Assembly: GCF_002979655.1 (NCBI RefSeq)
Contig: NZ_PCPG01000001.1
Coordinates: forward strand, 558,001 to 622,000
Direction: 5' to 3'
Origin: Microbacterium sp. MYb45
GTDB lineage: Bacteria; Actinomycetota; Actinomycetes; Actinomycetales; Microbacteriaceae
Length of the DNA stretch: 64,000 bases
Both the position numbers and the translations under genes were made by a program. Shown piece after piece: positions 4,481 to 10,756 of the stretch. Every line of letters begins with the position of its first letter. The stretch's first letter is position 1. The notes below the pieces were generated by a model, which was not told where the DNA came from, searched no databases, and saw only the letters and a program-made list of their open reading frames with translations.

Positions 4481-5794
4481 TCAGAACGCGCGCAGGTTCT
4501 CCTGGAGACCGCCGTCCGCATACGCGCGACGGAGGATGCCGCGGCGGCGCAGGATGGGCACGAGCTCATCGAGTGTGCGGTGCAGGGTGACCGGATGGAA
4601 GTCACCCCAGAGCAGCACGCCGTCGTTGCCCCACTCGCCGAGCTCTTCGACCAGGTCGGCGAACTCCTCGGCCGTTCCGACGAAGCCGGAGCGGTCCGTG
4701 ATCCGGCCCGTGCGGGCGAGCGCCGTCAGATGTGCGCGCAGCGGGGCGTCCTCGCCGCGGTCTCCGATCAGGCGCTGGATGCTCCCGCGTGAGACGTGGG
4801 CGCCGAAGATCGAGGGGTCCAGCGCCTTGTCGAGGTCGAGCGACGTGAGGTCGGTCTCGAGGTCGCTGGACTGCTTGCGGGCGATCTGCACCAGTGCGGC
4901 GTCGTCGGGATGGGCCGAGGCGGCGACGATGCGGTCCGCCTCCTCGCTCGATGTGGTGATCTCGGGCTGGATGGCGAAGAGGATCTTGACGTCCTCCGGC
5001 TGCCGCCCCTTCGCGATCGCCGCCTCGTGCACCCGGGCACGGTAGTCGCGCACGGACTTCTCGTTCAGCGGAGCCAGCGCGAGCTGCACATCGGAGTTCG
5101 CGCCGGCGAACCCGAGTCCGCGCCCGGAGCCGCCGGGGGAGACGATCGCCGGATCCCCGTCCGTGAACGGGAGGGCGTTGAGCGGGCCGTCGAACGCGAA
5201 GTGCTCGCCCCGGTGCCGGACGGGCTGCAGCTTCGCGCCGTCGGCGTAGACGCCGGTCTCGCGGTCGGCGACGAGTGCGCCGTCGTCCCAGCTGTGCCAC
5301 AGCGCGCGGATCCCGGCGAGCCATTCCTCCGCGCGGTCGTACGCCTCGTCGTGACCGAGCTGCGACGTGTCCGAGAAGTGTCGTGCGCTGCCGGTGTCGG
5401 TGACGACGTTGAGACCCAGCCGATGCCCGCTCAGATGCTGCAGCGTCGCGAACTGGCGTGCCGCGGTGTAGGGGAGGTACGCGGCCGGATTGACCGTCGG
5501 CACCACGCCCAGGTGCCTCGTCGCCTGGAAGAGATACGGAGCGAGCAGGAGTGGATCGTGCTTGGGGCCCCCGAAGGCGTGGCGGACCCGTAGATCGATC
5601 GTCGACGGCGACCCCAACGACGGCGCGTCCTCGATGATGACCAGGTCGAAGCCCGCCTGCTCGAGGGTGCGGGCAGCGTCCTGGTACACCTCAGGGCGCG
5701 TCCAGTCGTAATCCCAGTCGAGAGCCGGGTAGCCCCAGCCCTGCGGCCCGAAACCGCGCGCCAGGAACCAGCCGAAGTGCTGGGGGCGGCTCAT
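4481..5794 (-). CDS. LLM-class flavin-dependent monooxygenase (NtaA/SnaA/DszA type)
   Basis: 437 residues, the usual length for the nitrilotriacetate/dibenzothiophene-sulfone monooxygenase branch of luciferase-like enzymes. It shows the TIM-barrel pattern of the family: HFGWFLARGFGPQGWG at the N-terminus, TLEQAGFDLVIIEDAP, LGVVPTVNPAAYLPYTAARQFATLQHLSGHRLGLNVVT and SPGGSGRGLGFAGANSD. These enzymes use FMNH2 from a separate reductase and O2 to cleave C-S, C-N or C-C bonds. It overlaps the upstream sulfhydrylase gene by ATGA (5791-5794), which points to an organosulfur substrate. No flavin reductase gene is near. Confidence 0.9.
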   Translation of the reverse strand: MSRPQHFGWFLARGFGPQGWGYPALDWDYDWTRPEVYQDAARTLEQAGFDLVIIEDAPSLGSPSTIDLRVRHAFGGPKHDPLLLAPYLFQATRHLGVVPTVNPAAYLPYTAARQFATLQHLSGHRLGLNVVTDTGSARHFSDTSQLGHDEAYDRAEEWLAGIRALWHSWDDGALVADRETGVYADGAKLQPVRHRGEHFAFDGPLNALPFTDGDPAIVSPGGSGRGLGFAGANSDVQLALAPLNEKSVRDYRARVHEAAIAKGRQPEDVKILFAIQPEITTSSEEADRIVAASAHPDDAALVQIARKQSSDLETDLTSLDLDKALDPSIFGAHVSRGSIQRLIGDRGEDAPLRAHLTALARTGRITDRSGFVGTAEEFADLVEELGEWGNDGVLLWGDFHPVTLHRTLDELVPILRRRGILRRAYADGGLQENLRAF

Positions 5795-7086
5795 GCAACC
5801 GTCTCCCGCACGGCGTTCAGCACCTGGGAGAGGTCGGCGACGAGATCATCGACGTCTTCGATGCCGATCGACACCCGCAGCGTGCCGGGGTGCACCCCCA
5901 GAACCTCGCGCTCTTCGTCCGTGCGCTGCGCGTGACTCGTCGTCGCCGGATGCAGCACCAGAGAGCGGACGTCACCGATGTGCGTCATGTGTGTGAAGAC
6001 CTGCACGCCCTCGACGAACCGTCGTGCGGCGCGCAACCCGCCACGCAGGGTGAAGGTGAAGATCGACCCCGATCCGCCTTCGAGGTAGCGGGAGCCGATC
6101 TCGTGGTCAGGATGCGAGGGGAGTCCGACGTAGTCCACGCTCTCGACCGCGTCGTGCCGTTCCAGCCACTGCGCGATCTGGAGGGCGTTGCGGGATTGCC
6201 TCTCGACGCGGAGGCCGAGCGTCTCCACGCCCTGGCCGATCAGGAAGGCGTTGAGCGGCGACGGAGACGCCCCGAAGCGAGGTGCCACCGACTCCCGCGC
6301 GTAGGCGATGCGTGCGCGGCCGCCGTGGCGAGCGAAGACACTGGGCGCGTCGCCGCGACCCGGCAGCACGAGGTGCGGCGCATTGTGGCCCGCATGCTCG
6401 GCGTCGAAGCGTCCGTCGTCGACGATCACGCCGCCGAGCACCGACCCGTGTCCGGCCAGGAACTTCGACGCGGAATGGACGACGATCGCCGCGCCGTGCT
6501 CGATCGGACGCAGCAGGGCCGGGGTGGCCAGGGTGTTGTCCACGATCAGCGGGATCGCGAACTCGTCGGCGATGTCGCTGATGGCGCGGATATCGAGCAC
6601 GTCGTTGCGCGCGTTCGCGACGGACTCGGCGAACACCGCGCGGGTGTTCGGGCGGATCGCCGCCCGCCAGGCGTCCGGATCGGCGATGTCGTCGACGAAG
6701 GTCGTCTCGATGTCGAGGCGAGCCAGGTTGTCGAGGAAGAGCCCTCGGGTGCCCTCATAGATGTGCGTGGAGGAGACGATGTGGTCGCCGGCGCCCACGA
6801 CGGTCAGCAGGGCGGTCACGACCGCCGCCTGCCCGCTCGCGACCAGCACCGCGTCCGCGCCGGACTCCAGAGCCGCGAGCTGACGCTCCACGGCTCGAAC
6901 CGTCGGGTTGCCCGTGCGCGTGTATCCGAAGCCCGCCCCGGTGCTGAAGTGGTCGGCCGCATGGTCGAAGTCGTCGAACTCGAACCCCGCCGTCAGATAG
7001 ATGGGGGTCGCGCGCGAGGCGGCCGTCTCACGGCTTCTCGCCGCGTGGACCGCACGGGTGGCGAAGCGGGCGGTGTCGACGGTCAT
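5791..7086 (-). CDS. O-acetylhomoserine sulfhydrylase-type PLP enzyme (Cys/Met metabolism family)
   Basis: 431 residues of a fold-type-I PLP enzyme. YTRTGNPT spans residues 55-62, the cofactor-binding aspartate is in IVDNT (D183), and the Schiff-base lysine is K208 in HSASKFLAGHG. The length and the THIYEGT and HPATTSHAQ segments match O-acetylhomoserine aminocarboxypropyltransferase (MetY), which makes homocysteine from O-acetylhomoserine and sulfide. It is the first gene of a two-gene leftward unit with a flavin monooxygenase, so sulfite or a thiol released by the monooxygenase may feed methionine synthesis. The ribosome site GAGAGG precedes the ATG. Confidence 0.88.
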   Translation of the reverse strand: MTVDTARFATRAVHAARSRETAASRATPIYLTAGFEFDDFDHAADHFSTGAGFGYTRTGNPTVRAVERQLAALESGADAVLVASGQAAVVTALLTVVGAGDHIVSSTHIYEGTRGLFLDNLARLDIETTFVDDIADPDAWRAAIRPNTRAVFAESVANARNDVLDIRAISDIADEFAIPLIVDNTLATPALLRPIEHGAAIVVHSASKFLAGHGSVLGGVIVDDGRFDAEHAGHNAPHLVLPGRGDAPSVFARHGGRARIAYARESVAPRFGASPSPLNAFLIGQGVETLGLRVERQSRNALQIAQWLERHDAVESVDYVGLPSHPDHEIGSRYLEGGSGSIFTFTLRGGLRAARRFVEGVQVFTHMTHIGDVRSLVLHPATTSHAQRTDEEREVLGVHPGTLRVSIGIEDVDDLVADLSQVLNAVRETVA

Positions 7087-7154
7087 GCGGTGCCTCTCGG
7101 TCGTTCGGTGCTCAACAGAGTGTCATGACGGGTCGGAGCGCGTCCGAGCGGTGG

Positions 7155-7160
7155 TAATCT
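7155..7160 (+). promoter_or_regulatory. -10 box for the leu leader
   Basis: TAATCT sits six bases before the ATG of the leucine leader peptide (7167). The peptide should therefore be the first thing translated from a leaderless mRNA. No clear -35 hexamer is seen. Confidence 0.65.
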
Positions 7161-7166
7161 GACGTC

Positions 7167-7217
7167 ATGCGGACCGTGCTCCTTCTTCTTACGCGCCGCG
7201 ACGAGACCTCGATCTAG
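7167..7217 (+). CDS. Leucine leader peptide upstream of leuCD
   Basis: A 16-residue [19 protein letters not shown], with four consecutive leucine codons (CTC CTT CTT CTT, 7179-7190). It ends at TAG 7215-7217, 59 bases before leuC. A 10-bp perfect hairpin (7196-7205 with 7226-7235) starts six bases after the last Leu codon, so its 5' arm lies inside the peptide ORF. CTCCT at 7223-7227 is complementary to the leuC ribosome site AGGAG at 7265-7269 and partly shares bases with the 3' arm. This is the layout of a translated attenuator: ribosome position on the Leu codons decides which helices form. Which pairing turns leuC on is inference. Confidence 0.8.
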
Positions 7218-7269
7218 AGCCCCTCCTCGTCGCGGAGTCCATCGTGGGCCGTACCGCCAGCCTCAGGAG
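7196..7269 (+). promoter_or_regulatory. leuC attenuator: hairpin plus anti-Shine-Dalgarno segment
   Basis: Stem 7196-7205/7226-7235 (10 bp, GC-rich) and the alternative pairing of CTCCT 7223-7227 with the leuC ribosome site at 7265-7269 exclude each other in part. No U-run follows the hairpin, so control of leuC translation, or factor-dependent termination, is more likely than classic intrinsic termination. Confidence 0.6.
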
Positions 7270-7276
7270 ACACGCA

Positions 7277-8722
7277 ATGACCACCCCCGCAAACGGTGCC
7301 GATTCCGCACGCCGCAGGACCCTCGCCGAGAAGGTCTGGGACGACCACCTCGTCGTCAAGGGCGAGAACGGCGAACCCGACCTCATCTACATCGACCTGC
7401 ACCTCGTGCACGAGGTCACCAGCCCGCAGGCGTTCGACGGCCTCCGCAGCGAAGGGCGGCCGCTCCGCCGCCTCGACCTGACGATCGCGACCGAGGACCA
7501 CAACACCCCGACGCTGGAGATCCACAAGCCGATCGCCGATCTGACCAGCCGCACGCAGATCGAGACGCTGCGCCGCAACGCGGCGGAGTTCGGGGTGCGT
7601 CTGCACTCGCTCGGTGACGCGGAACAGGGCATCGTGCATGTCGTCGGACCCCAGCTCGGGCTCACGATGCCCGGAATCACGGTGGTCTGCGGGGATTCCC
7701 ACACCTCGACGCACGGCGCGTTCGGAGCGATGGCGTTCGGCATCGGCACCAGCGAGGTCGAGCACGTCATGGCCACGCAGACACTGCCGCTGAAGCCGTT
7801 CAAGACCATGGCGATCAACGTCGAGGGCACTCTGCGTGACGGCGTCACCGCGAAGGACATCATCCTCGCCGTGATCGCGAAGATCGGCACGGGTGGCGGT
7901 CAGGGCTACGTGCTCGAGTATCGCGGCAGCGCCATCCGCGCCCTCTCCATGGAGGGGCGCATGACGATCTGTAACATGTCGATCGAGGCCGGAGCCCGGG
8001 CCGGCATGGTCGCGCCCGACGAGACCACCTTCGCCTATCTCGAGGGCCGTCCGCACGCCCCCAAGGGCCAGGACTGGGAAGAGGCCGTGGCCTACTGGCG
8101 CACCCTGCCGACCGACGAGGGCGCGACCTTCGACGCCGAGGTCTTCATCGACGCCGACGAGCTCGAGCCGTTCGTGACCTGGGGGACCAACCCCGGTCAG
8201 GGCAGCTCGCTGTCGTCCTCGGTGCCGAATCCCGCCGAGATCGTCGATCCGAACGAGCGGGCCGCCGCCGAGCGTGCGCTGGAGTACATGGACCTCACGC
8301 CGGGGACGCCCCTCAAGGAGGTACCGGTCGACGCCGTGTTCATGGGGTCGTGCACCAACAGCCGCATCGAGGATCTGCGCGCCTTCGCATCGATCATCCA
8401 GGGCAAGAAGAAGGCCGACGGTGTGCGCGTCATGGTCGTCCCCGGGTCGGCGCGTGTACGCCTGGAGGCCGAGGCAGAGGGCCTCGACAAGGTCATCACG
8501 GACTTCGGAGCGGAATGGCGCTTCGCCGGATGCTCGATGTGTCTGGGCATGAACCCCGACCAGCTCGCACCGGGCGAGCGCTGTGCTTCCACATCGAACC
8601 GCAACTTCGAAGGACGGCAGGGCAAGGGAGGGCGCACGCACCTCGTGTCGCCGCTCGTCGCCGCCGCGACCGCGATCCGCGGCACGCTGTCCAGCCCGAG
8701 CGACCTGACGGAAGGGATCTGA
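7277..8722 (+). CDS. leuC: 3-isopropylmalate dehydratase large subunit
   Basis: 481 residues, normal for LeuC. With LeuD it isomerises 2-isopropylmalate to 3-isopropylmalate in leucine synthesis, using a [4Fe-4S] cluster. The three cluster cysteines are visible: C359 in [10 protein letters not shown], and C419 and C422 in [26 protein letters not shown] is the family signature. The start MTTPANGAD at 7277 has AGGAG at 7265-7269. leuD follows after three bases. Expression is probably governed by the Leu-codon leader just upstream. Confidence 0.97.
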
Positions 8723-8725
8723 CCC

Positions 8726-9322
8726 ATGGAGAAGTTCATCACGCACACGGGCGTCGCCGCACCGCTGAAGCGCTCGAACGTCGACACCGACCAGATCATC
8801 CCGGCTGTCTTCTTGAAGCGCGTCACGAAGACGGGTTTCGAAGATGCTCTGTTCCACGGCTGGCGACAGGACCCGGAGTTCGTGCTCAACCAGCCGGAAT
8901 TCCAGGGCGCGTCCGTCCTCGTCGCCGGTTCGGACTTCGGTACCGGATCCAGCCGTGAGCACGCCGTGTGGGCATTGCGCGACTTCGGATTCAAAGTGGT
9001 CCTCAGTCCGCGCTTCGCCGACATCTTCCGCGGGAACTCGGGCAAGCAGGGCCTTCTCGCGGCGACGATCTCGGAAGAGGATCTCGAGCGGATCTGGGCG
9101 GAGATCGACCGGAATCCCGGGGCACGGATGACGGTCGACCTCGAGGCGCGCAGCGCGTCGATCGGTGACGTCCAGGCCGAGATCGGGATCGACGATTACA
9201 CTAGATGGCGGCTCCTCGAAGGGCTCGATGACATCGGGCTCACGCTGCGCAACGAAGACAAGATCGCGCAGTTCGAGGCCCGTCGCGAGTCGTGGCGGCC
9301 CCGAACCCTTCCCGTTCAGTAA
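8726..9322 (+). CDS. leuD: 3-isopropylmalate dehydratase small subunit
   Basis: 198 residues. The swivelling-domain signature is intact ([28 protein letters not shown] and [13 protein letters not shown]). It forms the heterodimer with LeuC and completes the 2- to 3-isopropylmalate step. It is three bases from leuC and clearly co-transcribed. The 66-base gap to murA holds a G-rich stretch (9325-9350) and may end the leu transcript weakly. Confidence 0.97.
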
Positions 9323-9388
9323 ACGGCGGGGGCGGGGGAGCCCAGGGGCAACCCGCCCCCGAAATCCGTAAATGAAGTGAGGCTCCGA

Positions 9389-10756
9389 ATGACGACACCT
9401 GTGCGCGACGCTCTCCCGGACGGAGTCCCTGCACTCACCGGAGACGTCCTCGCCATTCGAGGCGGACGCCCGCTTCGCGGTCGCGTCGACGTCAAGGGGG
9501 CGAAGAACCTGGCCACCAAGGCCATGGTCGCCTCGCTCCTCGGCGAGACCGTGAGCACCCTGCGCGATGTGCCGGCGATCAGCGATGTCGCCGTCGTGCG
9601 CTCGCTGCTCGAGGTACACGGTGTGCGCGTCAGCGAGGGCGATGAGCCCGGCTCGCTCGTCTTCGACCCGAGTGATGTCGAGTCGGCCCACTTCGAGGAG
9701 ATCGACGCCCACGCCGGCGCCTCCCGCATTCCGATCCTCTTCTGCGGGCCGCTCCTGCACCGTCTCGGTCAGGCGTTCATCCCCGACCTGGGTGGATGCC
9801 GTATCGGCGACCGCCCTATCGACTTCCACCTGGATGCGCTCCGCAAGTTCGGCGCCATCGTCGAGAAGCTCCCCAGTGGCATCCGCCTCTCGACGGGCGG
9901 AAGCCGCCTGCACGGTGCGAACATCCACCTCCCGTACCCGAGTGTCGGCGCCACGGAGCAGGTGCTGCTCACCGCGGTCCGCGCCGAGGGCGTGACGGAG
10001 CTGCGCAACGCCGCCATCGAGCCCGAGATCATGGACCTGATCGCGGTCCTGCAGAAGATGGGCGCGATCATCTCCTACGAGCCGAACCGCGTCATCGTCA
10101 TCGAGGGCGTCGAGAAGCTCCGCGGCTACGACCACCGGTCGATCTTCGACCGCAACGAGGCGGCCTCGTGGGCATCCGCGGCTCTGGCCACCGACGGCGA
10201 GATCTTCGTCGGCGGTGCCAAGCAGCAGGAGATGCTGACGTTCCTCAACATCTTCCGCAAGGCGGGCGGCTGGTTCGATATCCAGGAAGACGGCATCCTC
10301 TTCCGTCGTGACGGTGACATCAAGCCCGTCGTCATCGAGACCGACGTGCACCCCGGCTTCATGACCGACTGGCAGCAGCCCCTCGTGGTCGCACTGACTC
10401 AGGCGCACGGCCGTAGCGTCGTGCACGAGACCGTGTATGAGAACCGGATGGGCTTCACGGACGCGCTGGTCAAGATGGGTGCCGACATCGTCGTGCACCC
10501 CCGCGGTCTGCAGGACGGGCCCCGCCGCGTTCCCCGCCGCGACCTGGAGCAGGCTGCCGTCATCACGGGTCCGACGCCGCTGCATGGCGCGGACATCGTG
10601 GTTCCCGACCTCCGCGGCGGATACAGCCACATCATCGCGGCGCTGACCGCCACGGGCGAGTCGCAGGTGTCGGGTGTGGATATCCTCAGCCGCGGCTACG
10701 AGAAGTTCCTCGCCAAGCTCGACGCGCTCGGCGCCGACTTCGACGTCATCCGGTGA
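9389..10756 (+). CDS. murA: UDP-N-acetylglucosamine 1-carboxyvinyltransferase
   Basis: 455 residues. MurA adds enolpyruvate from PEP to UDP-GlcNAc, the first committed step of peptidoglycan synthesis. The substrate lysine motif GAKNLATKAM lies near residue 38. The active-site cysteine is present as C137 in LGGCRIGDRPIDFH, equivalent to C115 of E. coli; mycobacteria have Asp there and are fosfomycin resistant. The ATG at 9389 was chosen over the in-frame GTG at 9377 because GTGAGG then serves as ribosome site. It overlaps plsC by four bases (GTGA). Confidence 0.96.
   Translation: MTTPVRDALPDGVPALTGDVLAIRGGRPLRGRVDVKGAKNLATKAMVASLLGETVSTLRDVPAISDVAVVRSLLEVHGVRVSEGDEPGSLVFDPSDVESAHFEEIDAHAGASRIPILFCGPLLHRLGQAFIPDLGGCRIGDRPIDFHLDALRKFGAIVEKLPSGIRLSTGGSRLHGANIHLPYPSVGATEQVLLTAVRAEGVTELRNAAIEPEIMDLIAVLQKMGAIISYEPNRVIVIEGVEKLRGYDHRSIFDRNEAASWASAALATDGEIFVGGAKQQEMLTFLNIFRKAGGWFDIQEDGILFRRDGDIKPVVIETDVHPGFMTDWQQPLVVALTQAHGRSVVHETVYENRMGFTDALVKMGADIVVHPRGLQDGPRRVPRRDLEQAAVITGPTPLHGADIVVPDLRGGYSHIIAALTATGESQVSGVDILSRGYEKFLAKLDALGADFDVIR

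Follow-up and report, generated by a model that had tools for sequence, protein, structure and literature searches.

Seliverstov et al. (2005, PMC1262725) predicted a LEU element ahead of leuA in most Actinobacteria. In its published form a run of Leu codons within a leader peptide is combined with a pseudoknot and with a base stem that this run forms with the Shine-Dalgarno (SD) sequence. The leuA leader of S. lividans, leuL1, encodes the 15-residue peptide MRFGLLLLSCRGEGL and is reported to be leaderless and to have no typical terminator (PMC8079986). Mutations in the S. coelicolor leuA leader had some effect, inconsistent with classical attenuation (Craster et al. 1999, cited in PMC1262725), and partly because of these results the mechanism of LEU elements has been unsettled since 2005 in the literature searched; the authors of 2005 preferred the idea of a protein acting on the pseudoknot, such as an ML1624-like helicase (PMC1262725). 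The leuCD genes are known as targets of a protein regulator, NdgR/LtbR of the IclR family, and in Streptomyces NdgR controls leuCD together with other leucine genes (PMC4340878). No report of a LEU element at leuC or leuB was found among the open-licence PMC papers searched, and the words leuC, leuCD and leuB are absent from the excerpted text of PMC1262725.

Here we analyse the leader and putative regulatory RNA that precede leuCD in Microbacterium sp. MYb45 (positions 7152-7276 of the window, i.e. the whole 64,000-nucleotide stretch of DNA under study; all features of the element lie on the forward strand). Judged from sequence comparison, the LEU element is its best match, located at leuC instead of leuA. 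The leuCD leader has an open reading frame with a Leu run, a downstream pseudoknot, a base stem between Leu codons and SD, and homology with leuA elements, and like the published leuA element (PMC1262725) it is devoid of a terminator. It precedes leuC rather than leuA; thus the target differs while the structure does not. With leuL1 (PMC8079986) it shares a leaderless peptide and the lack of a typical terminator, although leuL1 sits at leuA and its leaderless nature was derived from RNA-seq, while that of the leuCD leader is predicted. Ribosome stalling at end-product codons, the hallmark shared by the classical leu, ilv and trp attenuators, would also operate here, but in contrast to those systems the leuCD leader has no terminator U-run and its sensing codons pair with the SD.

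The genes downstream are leuC (7277-8722, large subunit of 3-isopropylmalate dehydratase, NCBIfam TIGR00170 above cut-off) and leuD (8726-9322, small subunit, TIGR00171 above cut-off). As read directly from the sequence, leuC starts with the ATG at 7277 and is preceded at a distance of 7 bases by the SD AGGAG (7265-7269). Upstream, an extended -10 box TGG-TAATCT (7152-7160, hexamer 7155-7160) lies six bases ahead of the ATG (7167) of a 16-codon leader ORF (7167-7217) that contains four consecutive Leu codons, CTC CTT CTT CTT (7179-7190), proposed to serve both as sensor and, via pairing, as anti-SD. The first transcribed base is probably the A of the leader ATG, and this promoter spacing agrees with a predicted leaderless mRNA. 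The initial annotation had described precisely this arrangement, a short leader with four Leu codons six bases from a -10 box, and its reading as a leaderless Leu leader peptide ahead of leuCD, itself a prediction, gains from the retention of the leader in relatives. The combination is rare in the window. Among the 728 ORFs of 10-30 codons that begin with ATG or GTG on either strand, two encode LLLL, and of these only the leuC leader is preceded by TAnnnT at 6-7 nt; a TAnnnT so spaced is found ahead of 18 of 3820 ATG or GTG triplets. The fold stability of the element is unexceptional (z of -1.2, with 29 of 200 shuffles equally stable), and the case therefore rests on conservation and covariation.

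To compare the element among species we parsed 134 elements (104 leuC, 30 leuA), 121 of them with distinct cores, which had been selected for a hairpin with a CT-rich stretch ahead of it and not by frame, stop or promoter; the false hairpin matches L010, L031 and L192 were excluded, and for L163 the arms were assigned manually. In all 121 distinct elements an ORF starting with ATG or GTG terminates in the loop of the hairpin H1, its stop codon lying wholly within this loop (TAG, 7215-7217, in the window), and includes a Leu run of 2-5 codons. In 119 of the 121, TAnnnT lies 5-9 nt ahead of the start chosen for the leader, with a gap of 6 in 97 and of 7 in 18, and TGn is found in 110; as the start was picked with a bonus for a -10 box, the TAnnnT counts are upper figures. 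We confirm that the leucine leader upstream of leuCD is real and strongly conserved.

Hairpin H1 is formed by the arms CCGCGACGAG (7196-7205) and CTCGTCGCGG (7226-7235), which pair perfectly over 10 bp, exactly as the initial annotation had read it, and is supported by covariation and the predicted fold. A pseudoknot helix, S2, connects GCCC in the H1 loop (7219-7222) with GGGC downstream (7246-7249); in this genome it has 4 bp only, and it is supported by covariation. The base stem joins CGTGCTCCT (7175-7183) with AGGAG (7265-7269) and, after a bulged A (7270), CACG (7271-7274), as seen in the MFE and centroid folds and in the swap test described below. Its 3' strand (7265-7274) covers the SD and stops just short of the leuC ATG. 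The stem extends past the Leu run, the preceding codons pairing with the bases that separate the SD from the start codon, as in CGTG/CACG in the window and AGCGG/CCGCT in L193.

Covariation of these helices was assessed by duplex energies in 72 diverged representatives (51 leuC, 21 leuA), comparing native strands with 300 partner swaps. The native pairing is stronger than 300 of 300 swaps for H1 (-18.99 versus -17.61 kcal/mol when swapped), S2 (-9.73 versus -8.84 kcal/mol) and the base stem (-15.14 versus -13.72 kcal/mol), counts that are not probabilities, since swapping keeps species kinship. Covariation of the stem spanning 7196-7235, which had been expected for a genuine regulatory hairpin, is therefore found. 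In the leuC elements alone (n = 51) 0 of 300 swaps match the native value for each of the three helices. Among the leuA elements alone (n = 21) swaps are as good as native in 0 (H1), 18 (S2) and 3 (base stem) of 300 cases, so that S2 covariation within this group is weak. The register of S2 shifts by one base among species, which is why it was also tested by partner swapping; scored ungapped over the 121 elements, near-copies included, it gives 12.67 compared to a swap mean of 12.22, the top of 200 swaps being 12.73. Examples of S2 are CCCCGGC/GCCGGGG (L186), CTCGGCC/GGCCGAG (L022), CTAAGCC/GGCTTAG (L161) and CAGGC/GCCTG (L114). A pairing of the H1 5' arm with a downstream strand was rejected, as 184 of 300 swaps are equally good.

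An alignment of 62 of the 72 representatives (A1) is consistent with these results. In a fixed register 99.5% of the H1 cells and 81.9% of the S2 cells are paired. A1 contains 24 cells with two-sided changes compared to 7.7 in shuffles, and its covariation score is 0.135 compared to 0.091; neither value, nor the number of paired cells, is reached in any of 500 shuffles. The number of pairs with two-sided change (4, 3.3 in shuffles) and of pair types (9, 9.5 in shuffles) is ordinary. Slid pairings of A1 leave 31 to 61% of the cells paired, yet some of them show up to 22 two-sided cells. Seven of the ten H1 pairs are invariant in the 62 sequences, a conservation that exceeds what pairing alone requires, and the unpaired columns 31, 32 and 61 are at least 90% conserved. 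Among the 121 elements the variable pairs include H1 position 9 (AT 99, GC 17, GT 4, unpaired 1) and position 6 (AT 102, GT 9, GC 8, unpaired 2). Taken together, comparison between species supports the leader frame, the promoter spacing, H1, S2 and the base stem as predicted parts of the element.

The conservation around H1 also bears on the possibility that the leader acts as an arrest peptide, whose nascent chain (..RDE..) stalls the ribosome. The RDE residues after the Leu run are indeed conserved. However, H1 is changed at the second positions of the Asp and Glu codons in 19 and 21 of the 121 elements, for the most part giving Gly. Pairing is maintained in 38 of the 40 changes (25 as G-C, 13 as G-U), while the third codon positions within H1 hold (0, 1 and 0 changes). 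As the second positions vary with pairing kept and the third positions hold, it is the RNA that is conserved and not the peptide, which makes peptide-mediated arrest very improbable.

The initial annotation had assigned the role of anti-SD to a CTCCT in the hairpin loop. This motif is present in this genome (7223-7227), but CTCCT at the junction of H1 loop and 3' arm is kept in only 5 of the 72 representatives, and 50 of the 72 carry CTCCT within the 24 nt ahead of H1. In 55 of the 72 the Leu run outpairs the loop tail on the SD stretch (mean of -7.31 versus -4.73 kcal/mol) and is thus the better complement. The loop assignment therefore has to be given up; since the junction motif is rare and the Leu run is the better partner, the conserved anti-SD predicted by this comparison is the Leu-codon run together with the bases just before it. 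Codon usage fits this assignment, because pairing to AAGGAG demands CTT-rich runs: Leu runs of leuC leaders consist of 57.5% CTT, 33.5% CTC and 9% CTG, compared to 1.9%, 51.4% and 44.3%, respectively, in the Leu codons of six genes of the window. A single tRNA may decode both CTT and CTC.

Based on these features we consider translational attenuation by a LEU element upstream of leuCD to be the likely mode of control; the comparison lends good support to the translational mechanism, while ribosome stalling, the direction of the effect and control at the level of translation are what we infer from it. Transcription would start at the ATG of the 16-codon leader, and the leader would be translated in a leaderless manner. 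In the default fold H1 and the pseudoknot helix S2 would bring the Leu run (CTCCTT...) beside the leuC SD, and the pairing of both (7175-7183 with 7265-7274) would leave leuC untranslated. When charged tRNA-Leu is scarce, the ribosome would stall on the Leu codons, the SD would be unmasked and leuC translated. When leucine is plentiful, the ribosome would proceed as far as the stop within the H1 loop, which would set the Leu run free and let the mask form again.

Predicted SD exposure, calculated with ViennaRNA in a model that leaves out pseudoknots, was used to follow this switch. The predicted exposure rises by 0.19-0.20 when 20 nt are blocked around the centre of the Leu run or around a point 6 nt ahead of it, and blocks placed 18 to 60 nt downstream of the run change it by -0.006 to 0.043. 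With ribosome-sized blocks the mean predicted exposure in the 72 representatives is 0.28 for the free RNA, 0.48 with a block at the second Leu codon, 0.44 at the last Leu codon and 0.29 at the stop. Exposure is higher than with the stop block in 60 of 72 cases for the second Leu codon and in 55 of 72 for the last one. In this genome the corresponding predictions are 0.29 (free), 0.60 (second Leu codon), 0.19 (last) and 0.21 (stop), and the failure of the last-codon block to expose the SD here is a weak point of the model.

Leu leaders elsewhere work by transcription attenuation, and this counts in favour of a leader that governs termination ahead of leuC, either intrinsically at H1 or in a Rho-dependent manner. 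H1 is a strong GC-rich hairpin, and Rho has been suggested for cys leaders without terminators (PMC1262725). As the initial annotation had noted, however, there is no T-run past the stem and hence no U-run after H1, where the consensus reads AGTTCGTCGTnGGCTGA, so that the terminator hairpin with U-run of a classical attenuator is lacking. Furthermore, a terminator has no need for a covarying base stem that lies over the SD and ends before the leuC ATG. We therefore regard transcription attenuation as unlikely. The same covarying stem over the SD makes it probable that the leader acts on leuC translation rather than by classic termination, as had been proposed initially. In summary, the earlier reading holds with respect to a Leu leader and, probably, translational control of leuC; it does not hold with respect to the anti-SD in the loop, and it had missed both the pseudoknot and the identity with the published LEU element.

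Alternatively, a protein could bind the pseudoknot and open or lock it, with leader translation being incidental, along the lines favoured by the authors of 2005. The invariant H1 pairs and the conserved unpaired columns would be in line with a binding site, as would the non-classical behaviour reported for leuA leader mutants (PMC1262725). Against this, every one of the 121 elements retains a reading frame with its stop in the H1 loop and a run of two to five Leu codons. A leader ORF retained in 121 of 121 elements is hard to explain by incidental translation, and we judge this mechanism to be rather improbable. A metabolite riboswitch based on the pseudoknot could likewise make use of a compact pseudoknot with conserved sequence, an SD-masking base stem and a few conserved unpaired columns. 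Such a switch leaves the kept coding features unaccounted for, and the published LEU alignment is stated to be without conserved unpaired nucleotides (PMC1262725). No Rfam family matches the leuC or leuA elements: a search of 4227 families gives no match at E ≤ 1 in window positions 5000-9500, and at the leuA locus of this genome (L149) there are 4 matches below gathering score, 0 of them at the LEU element. A riboswitch is thus most unlikely. Translational attenuation remains the reading that we favour. If the Leu codons serve as both sensor and SD mask, mutating them would break both functions, and non-classical results would be expected, which may bear on the earlier leuA leader mutants. 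Synonymous recoding of the Leu codons would separate sensing from SD masking and renders the mechanism directly testable.

We then characterized the distribution of the element with a covariance model, R1, built from 44 leuC and 18 leuA elements (match threshold E ≤ 0.01; E-values are rough). In the genome of MYb45 R1 detects the elements at leuA (76.6 bits, E of 5.9e-13) and at the leuC of the window (72.9 bits, E of 3.7e-12), both building rows, and one at a second leuA-like gene (50.2 bits, E of 2.8e-7) that is not a building row; the next matches appear only at E of 0.98. The leuA element lies just upstream of its gene and has the same CGACGAG..CTCGTCG stem core. Across 15 genomes, the leuA and leuC copies of one genome show no clear excess of resemblance over chance (75 of 1000 shuffles as high). 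The third LEU element of this genome (L227, G000:C1:1216646-1216725) is located upstream of a divergent leuA-like gene at C1:1216844-1218511.

The expected conservation in relatives is borne out, as R1 matches 76 of 95 Microbacteriaceae leuC loci and leaves 19 without a match; 43 of the 76 are building rows, and independent matches amount to 33 of 52. These loci are a non-random set of 27 best matches, 28 new loci and 40 picked among the matches listed, and two pairs are identical over 160 bases, leaving 93 distinct. R1 further matches 30 of 30 leuC loci of the genus, the best 30 of 198 genomes, and 30 of 30 leuA loci of the family (19 of these 60 are building rows; 41 of 41 independent loci match). 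At E ≤ 0.01 it matches 0 of 53 leuC loci outside Microbacteriaceae (L028-L080, assigned by recorded taxon, the MAGs L036 and L079 being given only as Actinomycetota). The best score there is 19.8 bits (E of 0.064), on the opposite strand and past the far end of leuC. Class-wide, R1 matches in 135 of 148 genomes (5 of them Microbacteriaceae), in agreement with the published spread at leuA.

In a LeuC tree of 68 rows the presence of the element needs at least 7 changes, 3 of which are forced by well-supported branches, and Agrococcus, which is without the element, branches first in Microbacteriaceae with modest support (84/85). We read this tree as one early gain of the leuC element followed by several losses. 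Upstream of leuC in one genome (L187, G214) an apparently decayed element can be seen by eye, in which the CCGCGACGAG arm is recognisable while the partner arm and the Leu run are damaged; R1 does not match it.

NdgR/LtbR, which controls leuCD in other Actinobacteria, is unlike the leuC element a DNA-binding protein encoded beside leuCD (PMC4340878). An NdgR/LtbR-like ORF flanks leuC in 51 of the 53 non-family loci (the exceptions are L036 and L052), and none of 85 Microbacteriaceae loci has one. In whole genomes, NdgR/LtbR matches at E ≤ 1e-20 occur in 5 of 90 Microbacteriaceae, with identities of at most 41%, compared to 52 of 55 in the remainder of the order, there with a match of at least 58% identity; the order sample (n = 59) also included 4 Microbacteriaceae genomes, in which it is found in 0 of 4. 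Microbacteriaceae thus appear, on the sequences of the 90 genomes, to be without a close relative of this leuCD regulator. Family loci lacking the leuC element in the flank survey are likewise without NdgR nearby, and therefore the loss of NdgR probably preceded the gain of the element, which may have taken over its role. The leuCD copy accordingly seems to reflect the replacement, throughout the family, of a protein regulator by an RNA leader. On the side of leuC that carries ndgR/ltbR in most other Actinobacteria examined, the window harbours an O-acetylhomoserine sulfhydrylase-like gene (5791-7086, reverse strand), divergent from leuC, which scores below the NCBIfam cut-offs.

Outside the family, 43 element loci were examined, 33 ahead of leuA-like genes, 9 ahead of leuB-like genes, 0 ahead of leuC and 1 without a clear target gene. 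The leuB-like genes encode 3-isopropylmalate dehydrogenases (2 checked by NCBIfam, all 9 by tblastn to one), and their elements are located at L250, L265-L269, L274, L276 and L277. In the leuB leaders examined Val, Ile and single Leu codons replace the Leu run, e.g. MRSVFVLIDCRGEA in L267. A tentative and rather doubtful extension of these observations is a portable composite switch, in which the codons double as SD mask and the sequence-conserved pseudoknot adds a second input through a bound factor or the tertiary fold; such a LEU switch would have spread from leuA to leuC in Microbacteriaceae, in place of a transcription factor lost there, and by a separate route to leuB in other Actinomycetes. 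Two small ORFs upstream of leuB have no match in Pfam. A small ORF containing ..MDRRDNGGETG.., for which Pfam gives no match, follows the leuB element in at least two loci (L265 and L269).
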